From assembly GCA_028278505.1 (NCBI GenBank), contig JANQEG010000072.1, positions 1 to 33,398 on the forward strand: DNA of 33,398 nt. The letters are read 5' to 3'. Of the stretch, positions 21,469-33,133 are shown in pieces. This DNA comes from Rhodobiaceae bacterium (lineage in GTDB: Bacteria; Pseudomonadota; Alphaproteobacteria; Rhizobiales; JAKPQE01). Position 1 is the stretch's first letter. Each line of letters opens with the position of its first letter. Below the pieces are notes generated by a model. It was not told the DNA's origin and made no database searches. It saw only the letters and a list, made by a program, of their open reading frames with translations. The position numbers and the translations under genes are program-made.

Positions 21469-21555
21469 ACGCCGCCGCAATTCGACATGCTAAAAGCGCC
21501 AGCAGGGCCGTCAGAACGGAATTGTTATGATCTGCATAATTAGGAAATGCACGTT

Positions 21556-22992
21556 ATGACCGGCCAGACAGAGGGCGATCAACGCCGGCATTTCCGGCGC
21601 CCATCGGTTTGGTTCGATGGAATTGACCCTATCGCCGCCGCCGAAATCGCGGCCGCTGGTTCCGACATCGCCCTCGTTATATCGGACAATGGAAGCGTCG
21701 AAGATCTCACCTATGACGACCCGAGTCTCAAAGACTATCAGCCGGAAAACTGGATCGGAAAGCACTGGGAAACAACGGTAACGGCGGAATGCGTCGACAA
21801 GATCCGCACCATGATGTCGGAAAGCGAGACCGCCGGCGCGACGCGCCGGCGCCAGGTCAATCATCCGGCCAACGGGCTTCCGGATCTGCCGATCACCTAT
21901 GCCGTCGTTCTCGTTGACGGCGCCTCGCGGCGGGTCGCGCTCGGCCAGGATCTTCGCAAATACGCCGAAATCCAGAGCAGATTGCTGCAGAATCAGATCG
22001 AGATGGAGCAGGAATACCGCAGCCTGCGCCAGGCCGAGAGCCGCTATCGGATTCTGTTCAACCTGCTGGTCCAGCCGATGATCGTCGTCGACGGCGAAAC
22101 CGACCGGATTCTCGACGCCAATCGCGCGGCCACGGAGCTGGTCGGCAAGCGCCCCGGCCAGCTCATCGGCGAGGCCGTCATATCGATCTTCGATCGCGCC
22201 GGGCGCAAGCCGGTCGAAGCGGCCTTCGAGAGCGTGCGCCGGCAGGGCACCGACGCCCGCGCGCAGGCGCGGCTGATCAGGCAAAACGGCCCCGTGAAGA
22301 TCGACGTTCAGCCGTTCCGCGACGGCGAAAAGGTCAATGTCATCGTGAAGATAAGGAAGTCGGCGCGAGTAAATGAAGCGTCGGAGGCACGCCCGTCGCT
22401 GGACCGCGACGCGCTGTTTCAAGCCTTCCCGGAAGCCGCCGTCATTACCGACGATTCGGGAACGATCGAACGGCCGAACGACCAGTTTCTGGCGCTCGCC
22501 AAGGCGGTCTCGCCGGCCCAGGTTGTCGGCCGCGATCTCGGCATGTGGATCGGCGCCTCGCCGGTGGACATGCAGCTGCTGCTGTCGGCGGTGAAGGAAC
22601 GCGGGGAAATCCGCAATTTCACGACCGTTTTCAACGATGAGTACGGCACCGCCGTGCCGGTGCGGATTGCCGCCCGCATCCATTCCGAGGGCCTGCCGCC
22701 GCGGATCGGCTTTCTCATTCTGGAAACCGGCGCGCGGGTCGCCGGTCAGCCCTCGGTCGCCGGCGCCCTGCCCTACGAGCCCGCCAGTTTCGGTGAACTG
22801 GTCGGCCGCGTCCCGCTCAAGGAATTGCTGCGCGAAGCCTCTGACATCATTGAAAAACTGTGCATCGAGGCGGCGCTGCGCCAGACCGACAACAACCGCG
22901 CATCGGCGGCCGAAATCCTCGGCCTCAGCCGCCAGAGCCTCTACATCAAGATGCGCCGCCACGGCCTCGGCGGTGCGGAGAATTCAGATTAA
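21556..22992 (+). CDS. ppsR: PpsR/CrtJ-family transcriptional regulator (bchG-linked copy)
   Basis: A 478-residue regulator with the PpsR layout: an N-terminal PAS-like domain (from about 20), a coiled linker QSRLLQNQIEMEQEYRSLRQ (about 140-159), PAS1 (from about 162), PAS2 (from about 285) and a Fis-type helix-turn-helix (NNRASAAEILGLSRQSLY). PpsR represses bch, crt and puc genes in oxygen. Only two cysteines exist, C79 and C436 (EKLCIEAAL, the conserved HTH cysteine); the PAS-region cysteine near 250 of Rhodobacter PpsR is missing. The ATG at 21556 has AGGA ten bases upstream; an ATG at 21547 adds three residues and lies 7 nt after a CATAAT (21535-21540), so a leaderless longer form is possible. 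It is divergent from bchF and lies upstream of bchG. Confidence 0.93.
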   Translation: MTGQTEGDQRRHFRRPSVWFDGIDPIAAAEIAAAGSDIALVISDNGSVEDLTYDDPSLKDYQPENWIGKHWETTVTAECVDKIRTMMSESETAGATRRRQVNHPANGLPDLPITYAVVLVDGASRRVALGQDLRKYAEIQSRLLQNQIEMEQEYRSLRQAESRYRILFNLLVQPMIVVDGETDRILDANRAATELVGKRPGQLIGEAVISIFDRAGRKPVEAAFESVRRQGTDARAQARLIRQNGPVKIDVQPFRDGEKVNVIVKIRKSARVNEASEARPSLDRDALFQAFPEAAVITDDSGTIERPNDQFLALAKAVSPAQVVGRDLGMWIGASPVDMQLLLSAVKERGEIRNFTTVFNDEYGTAVPVRIAARIHSEGLPPRIGFLILETGARVAGQPSVAGALPYEPASFGELVGRVPLKELLREASDIIEKLCIEAALRQTDNNRASAAEILGLSRQSLYIKMRRHGLGGAENSD

Positions 22993-22999
22993 GCGTAAA

Positions 23000-23017
23000 T
23001 GTAAAACAAACGCGACA
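23000..23017. promoter_or_regulatory. PpsR/CrtJ binding site, distal
   Basis: TGT (23000-23002), twelve bases, ACA (23015-23017): exact TGT-N12-ACA match. It is 5 bp from the proximal site, which would allow cooperative binding of a PpsR tetramer as known for paired CrtJ sites. Confidence 0.75.
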
Positions 23018-23022
23018 CAAAG

Positions 23023-23040
23023 TGTCATACTTAATTGACA
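23023..23040. promoter_or_regulatory. PpsR/CrtJ binding site, proximal
   Basis: TGTCATACTTAATTGACA is an exact TGT-N12-ACA match; the dyad extends to AGTGTCA/TGACACT (23021-23042). Its right arm TTGACA is also the predicted bchG -35 hexamer, so a bound regulator would exclude RNA polymerase. Confidence 0.85.
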
Positions 23041-27426: not shown

Positions 27427-28827
27427 TCAGTCGTCGTCGGAAACAAGTCCATAACGCCGCAGCTTGCTGTAGAGGCCCTGCCGGCTGAGGCCGAGCACCC
27501 GGGCGGTCAGCGCCCGGTTATTGCCGGTCAGCTTCAACGCCGCCTCGATGCAGTTCTTCTCAATCACGTCCATTTCTTCGCGCACGAGGTCCTTCAACGG
27601 AACCTTGCCGATGAGGTCCTCGATCGCCGCGCCGGCCAGCGCCGGTCCCGGATCGCGGCGCTCCGACGCCGGCACCCTGAGCGTCACATTGCGCATCACG
27701 ACCCCGATACCGGGCGGCGTCCCGTCAGGCATCGACACCAGGGAAAGCTCGACATCGGTCGTCTCGCCGGTCGCGCCGCGCAGTCTGGCCGCCAGCATCT
27801 TGACCCGGCCGTGCCGGCGCACGGTCGCAAGCGTCACACCGACATCGAGTTCGGCACCGTCGAAGAACTCGCCCAGCGATCGCGAAAGCAGCGTTTCCAT
27901 GGCGCCGCTCTGGGTCAGAGCGACGAACGCCTCGTTCGCCCACAGGATCTCGCCGCCATCATCGACCAGAACGACGGCCTCGCTGGCGACGTGAATGAGG
28001 CGGGCGAGGTTCTGATCGGCCGGCGCGCTTTCACCGCCCGTGTCGGCCCGGTCCAGATGGACGAAGAACGTCGCCCCATCGCCGACCCGGCACAGCGTCG
28101 CCTTGACGGACAGCGCGCGTCCATCGGCGCTCGCATGGGCGGTCAGGGCTTCGCCCGCGCCGGCGCCCGCAACATGGTCGAGCATGGTCTGGATCGCCGC
28201 CCGGTCGGATTTGGCAAACAGATGTGTCAGGCGCCGCCCCGCCATGGCTTCCGCACCGGTCGCCAACAGGTCGGCGGCGGCCGGATTGGCCTCGCGGATT
28301 TGCCCGTTCGCGGCATCGACGATCAGAGCCGCCTCCGAGCCGATCTGGAACAGCATCCGATAGCGCGCTTCGTCCTGGCGCTGGCGTTCGAAGCTGCGCT
28401 CCATGGCCTGCTGCGAGGTCAGAAGGCGGTCCTGCAGCGCGCGCAGAGGATTGAGGTTGCGCCCCAGCAGCACGACGGCGCCATCCTTGCCGGCATGCAC
28501 GGCGGAATACCGGATCAGCACGCTGTCGCCGTCTGCCGTCGCGTGCTCGACGTCGCAGGCGACCGCACCCTCGCCGCTCGGCGTGGTGCCGATCAGATCG
28601 CGCACCCGCGGGCGCGAATCGGCGGCGACCACGTCATCGAGGCGATCACCGCGCCAGCCAGCGGCGCCGATCTGTTTCAGAACCTCTTGGGCGCCGGCGA
28701 CATCCATGATCACGCCGTCGCCGCCGACGATCAGGGCGATGTCGGAGGCAGCCGCAACGAGCGCGCCCACGGTCTGCGCGTCCGCGCCAGAGAAGTGGAC
28801 TGCGGATTGGAAAAAAGGTGCATTCAC
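27427..28827 (-). CDS. ppsR: PpsR/CrtJ-family transcriptional regulator (bacteriophytochrome-linked copy)
   Basis: A 466-residue regulator with an N-terminal PAS-like domain, coiled linker (LQDRLLTSQQAMERSFERQR), PAS1 (about 153-260), PAS2 (about 275-385) and a Fis-type helix-turn-helix near the end (NNRALTARVLGLSRQGLY). Cysteines are C91, C246 and C426; C246 and C426 (EKNCIEAAL) correspond in place to the C251/C424 and C249/C420 pairs that give redox control to R. sphaeroides PpsR and R. capsulatus CrtJ. By position, beside heme oxygenase and BphP, it matches the PpsR2 of Bradyrhizobium and Rhodopseudomonas, whose repression is relieved by the phytochrome. It starts with GTG (28827) with only a weak ribosome-binding site. 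tspO follows. Confidence 0.93.
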   Translation of the reverse strand: MNAPFFQSAVHFSGADAQTVGALVAAASDIALIVGGDGVIMDVAGAQEVLKQIGAAGWRGDRLDDVVAADSRPRVRDLIGTTPSGEGAVACDVEHATADGDSVLIRYSAVHAGKDGAVVLLGRNLNPLRALQDRLLTSQQAMERSFERQRQDEARYRMLFQIGSEAALIVDAANGQIREANPAAADLLATGAEAMAGRRLTHLFAKSDRAAIQTMLDHVAGAGAGEALTAHASADGRALSVKATLCRVGDGATFFVHLDRADTGGESAPADQNLARLIHVASEAVVLVDDGGEILWANEAFVALTQSGAMETLLSRSLGEFFDGAELDVGVTLATVRRHGRVKMLAARLRGATGETTDVELSLVSMPDGTPPGIGVVMRNVTLRVPASERRDPGPALAGAAIEDLIGKVPLKDLVREEMDVIEKNCIEAALKLTGNNRALTARVLGLSRQGLYSKLRRYGLVSDDD

Positions 28828-29099: not shown

Positions 29100-29747
29100 A
29101 TGTCAACGAAGACTACGGTTGGGCCAGGGGCAACCGTTCGGGACGTTCTGCGCGCCAAGACATGGGAAATCCATAAAAAACTGCACCTTCACGCAAGCTT
29201 CGTGGAGCTGTTCAATGAAACGTTGAGTCTCGACGGCTATCGCCTTCTGGTTGAGCGCCTGCACGGATTCTATGCCCCGCTGGACCGGGCGATCGATCAG
29301 GCGCTGGCCGGTGACGCGGCGCAAACCCGGTTTTCCTACGTCGCCCGCGCCGATATACTGGCCCGGGATCTGGCGGACCTTGGACTCGATCGTGGCGCGT
29401 TGGCGGACTCGCCCCAATGTCTTGGCGTTCACGACATCGTTTCGCCACTGACCGTCGGCGGCATCCTCTATGTGGTCGAAGGATCGACCCATGGCGGTTC
29501 CGTCATCGACACCGCAGCGCGCAAGCTTCTCGGCGACCATGCCGGCGGCAGGCGCTATTGGGCGTGGTGTCACGCAGAGAATGAGCGCCGCTGGACGGCG
29601 ACGAATCGCTATCTGGAGCACCTGCGCGCCGAGGGCGCCGCGCTGGAAGACCTTGTCGCCGGAGCGCGCGGAACATTTCAGCTCATGGCAGAATGGCTGG
29701 CACCGTTGAACCGATCCCCCGCCAAGGTTGAAAAGGGCATGTCGTGA
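29100..29747 (+). CDS. bphO: Biliverdin-producing heme oxygenase (bacteriophytochrome-associated)
   Basis: A 215-residue heme oxygenase of the bacterial phytochrome-associated group (called HmuO in Bradyrhizobium). It opens heme to biliverdin, the BphP chromophore. The proximal heme-ligand histidine is H25 in LRAKTWEIHKKLH, and the distal-helix glycines are in LYVVEGSTHGGSVID (124-138). The ATG at 29100 gives the normal size; the frame is open upstream to 29019, but that part has no family similarity. The stop overlaps the bphP start (GTGA, 29744-29747), so enzyme and apoprotein are translationally coupled. Confidence 0.92.
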   Translation: MSTKTTVGPGATVRDVLRAKTWEIHKKLHLHASFVELFNETLSLDGYRLLVERLHGFYAPLDRAIDQALAGDAAQTRFSYVARADILARDLADLGLDRGALADSPQCLGVHDIVSPLTVGGILYVVEGSTHGGSVIDTAARKLLGDHAGGRRYWAWCHAENERRWTATNRYLEHLRAEGAALEDLVAGARGTFQLMAEWLAPLNRSPAKVEKGMS

Positions 29748-32041
29748 GCACCGGATCCGTCGACCTCGACACTTGCGACCGCGAGCCCATTCACCTGATC
29801 GGCGCCATCCAGCCCCATGGCGCGCTCATCGCGGCCGACGAGAAGAGCGCGATCATCGACTACGCCAGCGCCAACACCGCGTCCTTTATCGGGTGGGAAA
29901 CGGAGGCGCTTCTCGGCAAAGGGCTGGTCGATCTGGTCGGCAGCGACAATCTCGCCGAGCTGCAACGGTTTCCGCTGACGCCGTCAACGCCCGAACTCCT
30001 GAAGCCCTGGTTCATCAAGGTTGCGGCCTGTGACCGGACCCCGATCGCAGTCGAGTGCCTGCCCCACCGCAATAACGGCCACATCATCCTGGAATTCCTG
30101 CCCCGCGAGGCAAACCCGGCCTCGGTCTGGGAAGACGAGATCCTCCGCCAGGGGATCATTTCCGAGCTCACCAAGCCGAACGCGCTCGCCGAACTGGCCG
30201 ATCTCAGCGCCGAGATCATCCGCAACGTGACCGGCTTCGACCGCGTCATGATCTATAAGTTCGCGGAGGACAAGCACGGCGAGGTCATCGCCGAGAGCAC
30301 GGACCGGCCGGACAGTTTCCTCGGACTGCACTATCCGGCCTCGGACATTCCCGACCCGGCCCGGCGCCATTTCTCGCTCAATGTCATGCGGTCGATTCCC
30401 GACATCAATGGCACCCACGTTGCGATCGTCAACCGCGCCGGTGCGATCGCCGACGCCGATGCCGCCCGGCCGCTCGACCTGACCTATTCCAAATTGCGCG
30501 CGGTCGCGCCGGTCCATGTGGAATATCTCAACAATATGGGCGTCAAGGCGAGCCTGTCGATCTCGCTCATCACCAACAACGAGCTCTGGGGCCTGATCGC
30601 CTGCCATCACTACGACACGCGCTACATATCGTCGAGCCGGTTGCGGTTCACCGAGCTTCTGGGCGGGACCATATCGGCGCTGCTCCAGAGCATCGAAAAC
30701 ACCAACCAGCTTCGCAAGAGCATCACGGCGGAGAAATTCGCCTTCAAGATCGAACAGAAAGCCCGTGCCGGAATGCCGCTGAGCGATCTGCTGACAGAAC
30801 ACGCCCCGGCCTTGACGGAGCTGGTGAACGCTCAAGGCATGGTGGTGGCGCTCGGTGGTCACGTTTTCGAACTCGGATCCGCACAGGCCAAATCGCTGGA
30901 TTTCAGCAATTTGCGAAAACACGTCGTCGACGGCATCGCCACGACATCGCACCTGTCCGGTCTGATTGATCTCGATGACGAACAAAGGCAGGCAGCGGCC
31001 GGCGCGGCCTTGCTGGAATTGTCGGAAGACGGCGACGACTATCTGGTGCTGCTGCGCAAGCATTTCGAAGAGATCGTTCGCTGGGCCGGCAAACCGGACA
31101 AGATCGAAATCCGCAGAGAGGACGGCACGATCCGGCTGTCGCCGCGCGGTTCGTTCGAGCTTTGGCGCGAAGAGCGCCTGGGCAAGAGCCAACCCTTCGA
31201 TGTCCTGGACAAGGACGCGCTCCGGATTATCCGCCGGGCATTGTTCGCCCTCAACAGCCTTGAACGCGAGCGCGCCGCGCTGGAGGCGCAACGGAGCGCC
31301 GAGGCCGAGGAGATCCGGCTCAGGCACGCACTTCTGGATGCCGCCCGCACGAGTTCGATGGGCGAACTCGCCTCGGCGATCGCCCATGAACTGAACCAGC
31401 CCCTGTCGGCGGTGGCCAACTACGTCAATGCGTGTCGCCAGGAATTTCACAATGCCGGCCTGGACATCCCCGATCGCGCCAAGGAACTCATCAATGAAGC
31501 GGTGATCGAATCCGCGCGCGCCGGCGACCTGGTGCGCCGCATGCGGAACTTCATTTCACAGGGCGATCTGAATACCGACTTCATCGACATCAACCAGGCG
31601 ATCGGCCACGGCATCGACCTTGCGCTGGTCACCAAGGATCTGCCGGAATTGCAGGTGATCAAGGCGTTCGGCGCCGATCTGCCGAAAGTCTGGGCCGATC
31701 CCGTTCAAATCGCGCAAGTGGTGTTGAACCTGGCGCGAAACAGCATTGCCGCGATGGCCGGCCAGCCGAAACCGATCCTCACCATCGAAACGATAGAACG
31801 CGACGGCCGCATTGAAGTGACCGTCCGCGACACCGGCAGGGGCATTCCCAAGGAGCTGAAGGACAAACTTTTCGATCCCTTCCATACCTCGACGACGCAC
31901 GGGATGGGGATCGGGCTGTCGCTGTGCCGCTCCATAATCGAGGCGCATGCCGGTCGAATCTGGGCAGAATCTTCAGCCAACGGCACAGAAGTGATATTCC
32001 GCCTTCCGATACGAGAGGAGCATAATGACCAAACCAAATAG
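29744..32041 (+). CDS. bphP: Bacteriophytochrome sensor histidine kinase
   Basis: A 765-residue red/far-red photoreceptor with a GTG start. The biliverdin-binding cysteine is C11 in DLDTCDREPIH, followed by the PAS domain (IGAIQPHGALI), a GAF domain with PASDIP (198-203, invariant aspartate D201) and VHVEYLNNMGV, and a PHY domain whose tongue carries PRGSFELWREE. The output half is a HisKA domain with H548 in AHELNQPLSAVANY, closely resembling FixL-type transmitters, and a HATPase domain with N-box NLARNSIAAM (662-671), DTGRGIP and GMGIGLSLC. All residues needed for chromophore binding and kinase activity are visible. It overlaps bphO by 4 bp and the response regulator gene by 17 bp. Confidence 0.96.
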   Translation: MSTGSVDLDTCDREPIHLIGAIQPHGALIAADEKSAIIDYASANTASFIGWETEALLGKGLVDLVGSDNLAELQRFPLTPSTPELLKPWFIKVAACDRTPIAVECLPHRNNGHIILEFLPREANPASVWEDEILRQGIISELTKPNALAELADLSAEIIRNVTGFDRVMIYKFAEDKHGEVIAESTDRPDSFLGLHYPASDIPDPARRHFSLNVMRSIPDINGTHVAIVNRAGAIADADAARPLDLTYSKLRAVAPVHVEYLNNMGVKASLSISLITNNELWGLIACHHYDTRYISSSRLRFTELLGGTISALLQSIENTNQLRKSITAEKFAFKIEQKARAGMPLSDLLTEHAPALTELVNAQGMVVALGGHVFELGSAQAKSLDFSNLRKHVVDGIATTSHLSGLIDLDDEQRQAAAGAALLELSEDGDDYLVLLRKHFEEIVRWAGKPDKIEIRREDGTIRLSPRGSFELWREERLGKSQPFDVLDKDALRIIRRALFALNSLERERAALEAQRSAEAEEIRLRHALLDAARTSSMGELASAIAHELNQPLSAVANYVNACRQEFHNAGLDIPDRAKELINEAVIESARAGDLVRRMRNFISQGDLNTDFIDINQAIGHGIDLALVTKDLPELQVIKAFGADLPKVWADPVQIAQVVLNLARNSIAAMAGQPKPILTIETIERDGRIEVTVRDTGRGIPKELKDKLFDPFHTSTTHGMGIGLSLCRSIIEAHAGRIWAESSANGTEVIFRLPIREEHNDQTK

Positions 32042-32630
32042 AACATTCTCCATCTACGTGGTCGAAGATGACGCTTCGGTTCTAAGATCGGTGTGCGCGC
32101 TGCTCAATTCGCACGGCTATGAGACGATCGCCTGCGCCTCCGCGGAAGAATTTCTCGAGGTTTACGACTCCGAACTCGAGGCCTGCATGCTGCTTGATCT
32201 GCGCATGCCGGGGATGAGCGGCATCGACCTGCAGGCACATTTGAACGCCATCAATGCCAGCATCCCGATCATCATCGTCACCGCCCATGGCGACGTTCCG
32301 ATCGCGGTGCGGGCGATGAAGGCCGGTGCCGTCGACTTCATCGAGAAGCCGGCCCAGGTCGACCAGCTTCTGGAAGCCGTCCAGCTCGCCGGCGCCGTCC
32401 TCACCAATCGGTCGGTTCCCCGCGTTCCCGACGAGGTCGTCGCCGATCGCATGTCCCGGCTGACCGAGCGGGAACGCGAAGTCCTCCAGCACCTCGTTCT
32501 CGGCAAGCTCAACAAAGAAATCGCCAACGAACTGGGGATCAGTCAGCGCACCATCGAAATCCACCGGTCGCGCATACGCGAAAAGATGCATGCCCGCGGC
32601 ATCTCGGACCTGATCCGCATGGTCCGGTGA
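32025..32630 (+). CDS. FixJ-like DNA-binding response regulator
   Basis: A 201-residue protein with an N-terminal receiver: acidic pair EDD (14-16), phospho-acceptor D58 (CMLLDLRMPGMSG), T86 and K108. The C-terminal LuxR/FixJ helix-turn-helix is LTEREREVLQHLVLGKLNKE...QRTIEIHRSRI, about 144-190. GAGGAG precedes the ATG. It overlaps bphP by 17 bp and is thus the obvious partner of the FixL-like phytochrome kinase. No sigma-54 domain is present. Its targets are unknown; photosynthesis genes are the natural guess from context. Confidence 0.93.
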   Translation: MTKPNRTFSIYVVEDDASVLRSVCALLNSHGYETIACASAEEFLEVYDSELEACMLLDLRMPGMSGIDLQAHLNAINASIPIIIVTAHGDVPIAVRAMKAGAVDFIEKPAQVDQLLEAVQLAGAVLTNRSVPRVPDEVVADRMSRLTEREREVLQHLVLGKLNKEIANELGISQRTIEIHRSRIREKMHARGISDLIRMVR

Positions 32631-32854
32631 AGGTCGCCGCCGCACGCCCGGCTGCGGCGTCGAAATACTCCAGCATCGTCAAACGCCTTCCGAATTTGTG
32701 CGCACTTTGTACGTTGTTTGTACGTAGTGGCAAATCCGAAATGGTTCCCCCTGACTTCGTGTCGTACCCTCACTAACGAGGGCGGGACTGGTTGTGGCGT
32801 AACAGCCCTCTCGGTTGAGTCCACCCACGCGTATCAAGCACACAGGCATTCCAA
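32631..32854. other. Intergenic region downstream of the phytochrome operon
   Basis: It contains a 7-bp GC hairpin (CGCCGCA 32638-32644 with TGCGGCG 32653-32659) without a T-tract, 8 bp after the response regulator stop; three 11-bp tandem repeats (32695-32727); and a 5-bp dyad CCCTC/GAGGG (32767-32782). No gene was found. Confidence 0.55.
32695..32727. repeat. Three tandem 11-bp repeats (iteron-like operator)
   Basis: TTTGTGCGCAC (32695-32705), TTTGTACGTTG (32706-32716) and TTTGTACGTAG (32717-32727) follow each other without gaps at one-helical-turn spacing. They lie 128 bp upstream of the ribbon-helix-helix-like gene. Such in-phase direct repeats are a typical arrangement for cooperative binding by ribbon-helix-helix proteins; this role is inferred. 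Confidence 0.65.
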
Positions 32855-33133
32855 ATGGCAGATTCAGACTCTTCGGAAGCGGATCTGGACAGAAGCCTGA
32901 AAGGGTCTCACAGTTTTGCTGTGACGCTTGACCCTGAGGAGCATGCGGCGATCGAAGGTTGGCGACAGGCCAACAACATCTCGACGCTGTCGGAAGCCGC
33001 GCGCGTACTTCTCCGATTGGGGCTGCTCGGCGAAATTTCGAAGGTTTACGGGGTCGTTTCGGCCGTTCGTCGTTCCGTCGGCGAGGAAACCGACGGTCAG
33101 TTCGCGTGCAAGGCACACGGTCGCCACAACTGA
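32855..33133 (+). CDS. Small ribbon-helix-helix-like protein, function unknown
   Basis: A 92-residue hypothetical protein. Residues about 19-56 (HSFAVTLDPEEHAAIEGW... to ...SEAARVLLRLGLLG) read as one beta strand followed by two helices with the SEAARxLLRLGL pattern of Arc/CopG/MetJ-type ribbon-helix-helix DNA-binding proteins. The N-terminal 18 residues are acidic; the tail (KVYGVVSAVRRSVGEE) has no recognised match. No toxin-like partner gene lies next to it and no ribosome-binding site is obvious. The 11-bp tandem repeats upstream may be its operator. Because it is a short frame, the gene call itself is tentative. Confidence 0.6.
   Translation: MADSDSSEADLDRSLKGSHSFAVTLDPEEHAAIEGWRQANNISTLSEAARVLLRLGLLGEISKVYGVVSAVRRSVGEETDGQFACKAHGRHN

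Follow-up and report, generated by a model that had tools for sequence, protein, structure and literature searches.

What does a bacteriophytochrome do when it carries the transmitter of an oxygen sensor and sits within a photosynthesis gene cluster? The question is raised by a 33,398-nucleotide stretch of an alphaproteobacterial genome (Rhodobiaceae bacterium, assembly GCA_028278505.1, contig JANQEG010000072.1; the whole stretch is hereafter the window), in which the genes for a heme oxygenase (bphO), a phytochrome (bphP) and a FixJ-type response regulator overlap by 4 bp (bphO/bphP) and 17 bp (bphP/regulator), as an earlier note on this DNA had said and as the open reading frame coordinates confirm. 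We propose that they form a two-component system, switched by light and devoted to phototrophy, in which a phytochrome module, a FixL-derived kinase and a FixJ-family regulator would serve one promoter, and we put the probability of this reading at about 0.62. The module is real, conserved and phototroph-specific; its parts are ordinary, and it is their combination and the single-target wiring that are new. Its elements are as follows.

29100-29747, + strand: bphO, heme oxygenase (biliverdin supply); ATG start, 215 aa; PF01126 at 40.8 bits
29744-32041, + strand: bphP, PAS-GAF-PHY module fused to a FixL-type HisKA/HATPase kinase; GTG start, 765 aa; assigned from Pfam, NCBIfam and the tree
32025-32630, + strand: FixJ/StyR-type response regulator, REC plus LuxR-type helix-turn-helix; ATG start, 201 aa; phospho-acceptor D58
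32717-32747, + strand: predicted FixJ-box promoter element TTTGTACGTAGTGGCAAATCCGAAATGGTTC, containing GTACGTAG; conserved in the alignment
32855-33133, + strand: 92-aa ribbon-helix-helix-like protein, predicted target of the regulator; no Pfam family

The last two lie beyond 32630, where the stretch described in the earlier note ended.

The photosensory module of BphP (approximately residues 1-510) has, as judged from its sequence, what a bacteriophytochrome should have, namely the PAS-GAF-PHY arrangement, the biliverdin Cys, and the DIP and PRxSF motifs. The Pfam architecture is PAS_2-GAF-PHY-HisKA-HATPase_c, with PAS_2, GAF and PHY above their cut-offs, and the chromophore Cys11, PASDIP (198-203), His258 and PRGSF (467-471) are invariant in the 13 BphPs that we aligned. 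The remainder (approximately residues 511-765; phospho-acceptor His548) is a kinase whose best NCBIfam match, over residues 519-757, is sens_FixL (NF041777), at 177.6 bits against an equivalog cut-off of 850; BphP is thus not a FixL, and the phytochrome module stands in the place of the heme-binding PAS oxygen sensor of FixL. H548/E549, the N-box, the DTG G1 motif and the GMGxGL G2 motif are invariant in the same 13 proteins. A tree of 84 kinase domains, whose long branches elsewhere are uncertain, places the 25 that belong to this BphP clade in one group (100/100) that joins the FixL kinases (99/96) and lies far from the other sampled phytochrome kinases. 'FixL-like' is therefore a statement of ancestry, beyond resemblance of motifs, and the earlier view of a FixL-type kinase half with intact ATP-site motifs is well founded.

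The regulator, Response_reg-GerE in Pfam terms, keeps its phospho-site Asp, Thr and Lys (D58, T86 and K108) in 12 of the 12 proteins aligned. FixJ is its best NCBIfam match, at 204.9 bits and below the equivalog cut-off of 255; its clade is monophyletic (99/91) within the FixJ/StyR family and is not sister to the five FixJ sequences in the tree, so that it is best described as FixJ-like, not FixJ. No further full-length FixJ-type regulator was found in the window genome, which is 85% complete, and its FixL-like kinases outside the module all score at or below 141 bits.

How widely is this pair kept? The clade BphP is found in 12 of the 297 genomes sampled from the order, the window genome included, and in one further genome (G443) of a class-wide sample of 385; a scan of named genomes beyond both samples brings the total to at least 26 distinct genomes, counted as such because the entries L074 and G060 both represent one Rhodobium orientis contig. 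The photosensory modules of the other 11 carriers in the order are 55-69% identical to that of the window, the next best being 37%. Among the matches listed, further hosts are Rhodobium orientis, Roseovarius, Sulfitobacter, Pseudosulfitobacter koreensis, Planktotalea, Aquibium, Chelativorans, Anderseniella and others, and in the plasmid collection the matches listed hold no phytochrome at 60% identity or more and no relative of the operon. Twenty-five of the 26 loci are complete, one ending inside bphP, and a FixJ-like regulator directly follows bphP in all 25, in Hyphomicrobiales and roseobacters alike. bphO adjoins bphP in most relatives, not all; of the three-gene operon in the earlier note, it is the kinase-regulator pair that recurs throughout.

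The module is also linked to phototrophy: pufL/pufM are present in 12 of 12 carriers, versus 60 of 297 genomes of the order overall (hypergeometric p=1.8e-9, a value that ignores genome relatedness), and only 18 of the 63 genomes that have other phytochromes alone are phototrophic. In two carriers (G165 and G106) the module and puf lie on different contigs, both still present. Two genomes of the same genera as carriers (G188 and G230) have pufLM and neither the phytochrome clade nor the box described below, and the module is therefore patchy within genera.

If the pair is so constant, where does its regulator act? The 31-nt element listed above lies in the gap that follows the regulator gene, not upstream of bphO, and contains an exact GTACGTAG, the FixJ consensus at the Rhodopseudomonas palustris fixK promoter (PMC13327599). 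The element aligns without gaps in 20 loci. A second half-site starts ~11 bp upstream, in the window as GTACGTT at 32709-32715, and is seen in several relatives too. Scored leave-one-out, 22 of 24 intergenic regions exceed every one of their 400 dinucleotide shuffles, and the window's own box reaches 35.5 bits and is the sole site above 8 bits in the 33 kb. Across the window genome the core pattern with 0-1 mismatch occurs once, and matches with two mismatches are no more numerous than those of a reversed-pattern control. A profile built from sequence only was run against 13 carrier genomes and seven non-carriers, most of the latter being phototrophs that lack the module: it returned one significant site in 12 of the 13 carriers, in each case directly behind the regulator gene, and no significant site in the seven non-carriers. 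G443, which was left out of the training set, still scores E=7e-5, a value that is rough, as are all E-values from so short a model. Since the window genome has no other full-length FixJ-type regulator and no other FixL-like kinase above 141 bits, a box of FixJ consensus points to the regulator of the module. A regulator with a single target promoter would be the simplest reading of these searches, and weaker targets are possible.

At the place of the 92-aa gene, 18 of 25 loci have a relative of it. When the order is searched with a profile of the protein, the 12 carriers and no other genomes score 88-111 bits, the best hit outside them reaching 47 bits, so that this subfamily is, in this sample, specific to the module; the lower-scoring relatives resemble ordinary small ribbon-helix-helix proteins. 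Its AlphaFold2 model, an extended segment followed by two helices with a core pLDDT (predicted local distance difference test) above 90, is no more than suggestive of a ribbon-helix-helix fold. A ribbon-helix-helix-like family that is common in the order (L236-L249; RLQIMLxxxELxAIxxWRFxxRMPSRxxAVRELLRRGL) is distant kin of the small protein.

Six roseobacter loci (L075-L080) retain the box but not the small protein; in its place comes a gene for an AerR/PpaA-like protein of ~280 aa with B12-binding domains (PF02310 above cut-off in all six scanned, PF02607 in four), whose best PDB match is AerR (E=7e-10). That the box survives this swap of the downstream gene assigns it to the regulator and not to the ribbon-helix-helix protein; we considered and rejected a site of small-protein autoregulation, as the box persists in roseobacters that lack the small protein. 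The studied members of the AerR/PpaA family are antirepressors of PpsR/CrtJ (PMC10890935, PMC5362033), and cobalamin-dependent antirepression is known for the family (PMC10890935). Since one branch has this box ahead of an antirepressor and the other has it ahead of the small protein, the swap suggests that both products feed into PpsR control. The module copies are divergent paralogues (26-36% identical) of the ppaA that usually stands beside ppsR and that several of these loci have as well, and one Roseovarius locus (L085) has the order box, small protein, ppaA-like gene, which looks like an intermediate state of the swap. Further AerR/PpaA-like genes or fragments lie near the module at L065:12265-13005(-), L075:7013-7576(+), L082:154-678(+) and L083:6475-6828(+), and those outside the main roseobacter group hint at repeated association. 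The idea that the window organism itself has no AerR/PpaA was dropped, as a distant homologue (25% identity) is encoded on contig C64.

Taken together, we posit the following chain. BphO would supply biliverdin to BphP, and light would alter, in one direction or the other, the kinase or phosphatase activity of BphP at His548; phosphate would then move to D58 of the regulator, whose phosphorylated form would bind the FixJ-like direct repeat at 32709-32747 and activate the promoter of the neighbouring gene and essentially no other. The product, a small ribbon-helix-helix-like DNA-binding protein in most Hyphomicrobiales or an AerR/PpaA-like protein in roseobacters, would in turn adjust the PpsR-controlled photosynthesis genes, the small protein perhaps by acting on PpsR or on its targets. 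Up to the box this proposal draws on intact domains, their conservation and the box itself, and for the last step on gene neighbourhood and the swap. The earlier note had proposed a second, phosphorelay route from far-red light to transcription. A dedicated relay of FixL/FixJ type is indeed by far the likeliest output, given the tree, the pair in 25 of 25 complete loci and the adjacent box; what falls away is the word 'second', since the PAS9/HOS output of the R. palustris phytochrome RpBphP1 is absent and there is thus no sign of a route added to direct PpsR antagonism. Far-red as the input cannot be read from the sequence, and the link from regulator to transcription narrows to the next gene, small protein or AerR/PpaA-like, as the only predicted target, in place of the photosynthesis genes themselves.

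Several observations sit uneasily with this chain. In PDB comparisons the regulator matches StyR slightly better than FixJ, and no FixJ box was found within 1.5 kb of the true fixLJ pairs in the same genomes. Two loci, L083 and L072 (genome G040), keep bphP and the regulator and have no recognisable box, L083 lacking the small protein as well, so at least those regulators act elsewhere or differently. The box model is uncalibrated for weak or divergent sites, and there may be additional, weaker targets; the strongly conserved CCGAAATAG half could be part of a sigma-factor promoter. For the small protein, no Pfam family was matched, the ribbon-helix-helix profile of NikR gives a weak match (E=0.048), and the MazE, ParD, NikR and MatP structures listed by Foldseek all have E>=0.4.

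The rest of the window is occupied by reaction-centre (puf), puh and bch genes, which makes it a true photosynthesis gene cluster, and it holds two genes for PpsR/CrtJ-type repressors, one of them the divergent neighbour of the module; the earlier placement of the module inside the cluster and beside ppsR is therefore upheld.

27427-28827, - strand: ppsR2, PpsR/CrtJ-type repressor, divergent neighbour of the module; TIGR02040 at 347.8 bits, above cut-off
21547-22992, + strand: ppsR1, second PpsR of the cluster, upstream of bchG; TIGR02040 at 353.9 bits

Exact PpsR-type boxes (TGT-N12-ACA) number three in all, two of them upstream of bchG, where they stand in tandem (window 23000-23040). The gap between bphO and ppsR2 has no exact box of this type, and direct control of bphO by PpsR is for that reason not suggested. 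A ppsR-like gene lies divergently beside the module in ~17 of 26 genomes and 1-3 kb downstream in three roseobacters. Shortened versions also occur: the module-side gene of Roseovarius L085 encodes 260 aa (L085:6413-7192(-)), with one N-terminal PAS-type region and a helix-turn-helix, and that of G071 encodes 384 aa (L064:11307-12458(+)), with apparently one or two PAS domains lost.

Could the phytochrome simply antagonise its neighbour? Direct, light-dependent antagonism of PpsR in the manner of BphP1, with the phosphorelay secondary or vestigial, has a precedent in Bradyrhizobium ORS278 and R. palustris (PMC6899989, PMC3899966), and a divergent ppsR-like neighbour is at hand in most loci. 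We nonetheless think it very unlikely: the RpBphP1-type antagonist has a C-terminal PAS9 and a two-helix output that replace an active kinase, whereas the Pfam scan of BphP finds no C-terminal PAS9 and the HisKA/HATPase region retains all its motifs; a FixL-type kinase with a partner regulator, catalytic residues invariant, is present in all complete loci; and the pair persists in roseobacters L075-L080 and in G040, where ppsR does not adjoin the module. Perhaps the regulator instead acts broadly and directly on the photosynthesis genes (puf, puh, bch, puc), with the box serving autoregulation of the locus only. The divergent loci of G040 and L083, which retain the regulator in the absence of a box, speak for this, as does FixJ of R. 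palustris, whose sites of action are the nif and fixK promoters and whose effect on puf and puc is indirect (PMC13327599). Set against it are the lack of a second site in the 33 kb that exceeds 8 bits and of any other with 0-1 mismatch in the genome, the one significant site per carrier genome, and the position of the box downstream of the regulator gene and not upstream of bphO, all of which make such breadth unlikely.

The last step of the chain has its own competitor, in which the small protein exerts FixT-like feedback on the kinase, or belongs to an unrelated unit, and has no action on PpsR control. FixT acts by feedback inhibition of FixL. Small feedback inhibitors of this type lie downstream of FixLJ in rhizobia (FixT is named in PMC13327599), and the weakness of the ribbon-helix-helix assignment leaves room for such a role; however, roseobacters have an AerR/PpaA-like gene at that promoter and the small-protein subfamily is confined to phototrophic carriers, and we regard feedback as unlikely.

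Returning to the light-switched relay with one promoter, what would it mean? For aerobic anoxygenic phototrophs, work on light sensing has dealt mostly with blue light (PMC12654162), and the phytochrome route to photosynthesis genes is largely open outside Bradyrhizobium and Rhodopseudomonas. The module names a kinase, a regulator, a predicted binding site and a single target gene, which makes the whole chain testable, and some of its hosts are cultured, e.g. Rhodobium orientis and Pseudosulfitobacter koreensis. Optogenetics has built phytochrome-FixL chimeras artificially; here is a natural one with a natural promoter. In evolutionary terms, we see about even odds that this is a widespread module in which a phytochrome took over the FixL transmitter together with a one-promoter regulon, so that light governs the transcription of just one small DNA-binding protein, and that the roseobacter branch was rewired to an AerR/PpaA-like antirepressor of PpsR, joining red light, B12 sensing and PpsR repression in a single chain. 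In the open-access literature we found no description of the module, the small protein or the box, subscription journals being largely outside this coverage.

How, then, does the module compare with known systems? With FixL/FixJ of rhizobia and R. palustris it shares a sister kinase domain, a FixJ-family regulator, paired genes and a GTACGTAG-type box (PMC13327599). However, the sensor there is a heme-PAS and here a biliverdin phytochrome module, the targets there are fixK and nif and the predicted one here is a neighbouring small-protein or AerR-like gene, and both components fall under the FixL/FixJ equivalog cut-offs. Like BphP1-PpsR of Bradyrhizobium ORS278 and R. palustris, it has its phytochrome gene and ppsR as neighbours within the photosynthesis cluster; BphP1, though, binds PpsR and has no classical kinase output, RpBphP1 having a PAS9 and two-helix output and binding PpsR2 (PMC6899989), whereas the kinase of the module is complete, of FixL type, and has a regulator of its own. 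The AerR/PpaA (and LdaP) antirepressors of PpsR/CrtJ (PMC10890935, PMC5362033) resemble the predicted roseobacter target, which would converge on PpsR control, with the difference that the module carries an additional, divergent paralogue next to the usual ppaA; no report of a phytochrome two-component system upstream of an AerR/PpaA gene was found in the open-access literature. Finally, phytochrome phosphorelays that control light-harvesting genes are known from RpBphP2/P3, LhfD (RPA3017) and LhfE, which govern LH4 in R. palustris (PMC6879726). There too phytochrome kinases signal through a phosphorelay to phototrophy genes, but the regulator is a different one, and the system lies beside pucBAd and has neither a FixJ box nor an AerR-like output; in light of this precedent, the route that we propose is novel in how it is wired but not in principle.

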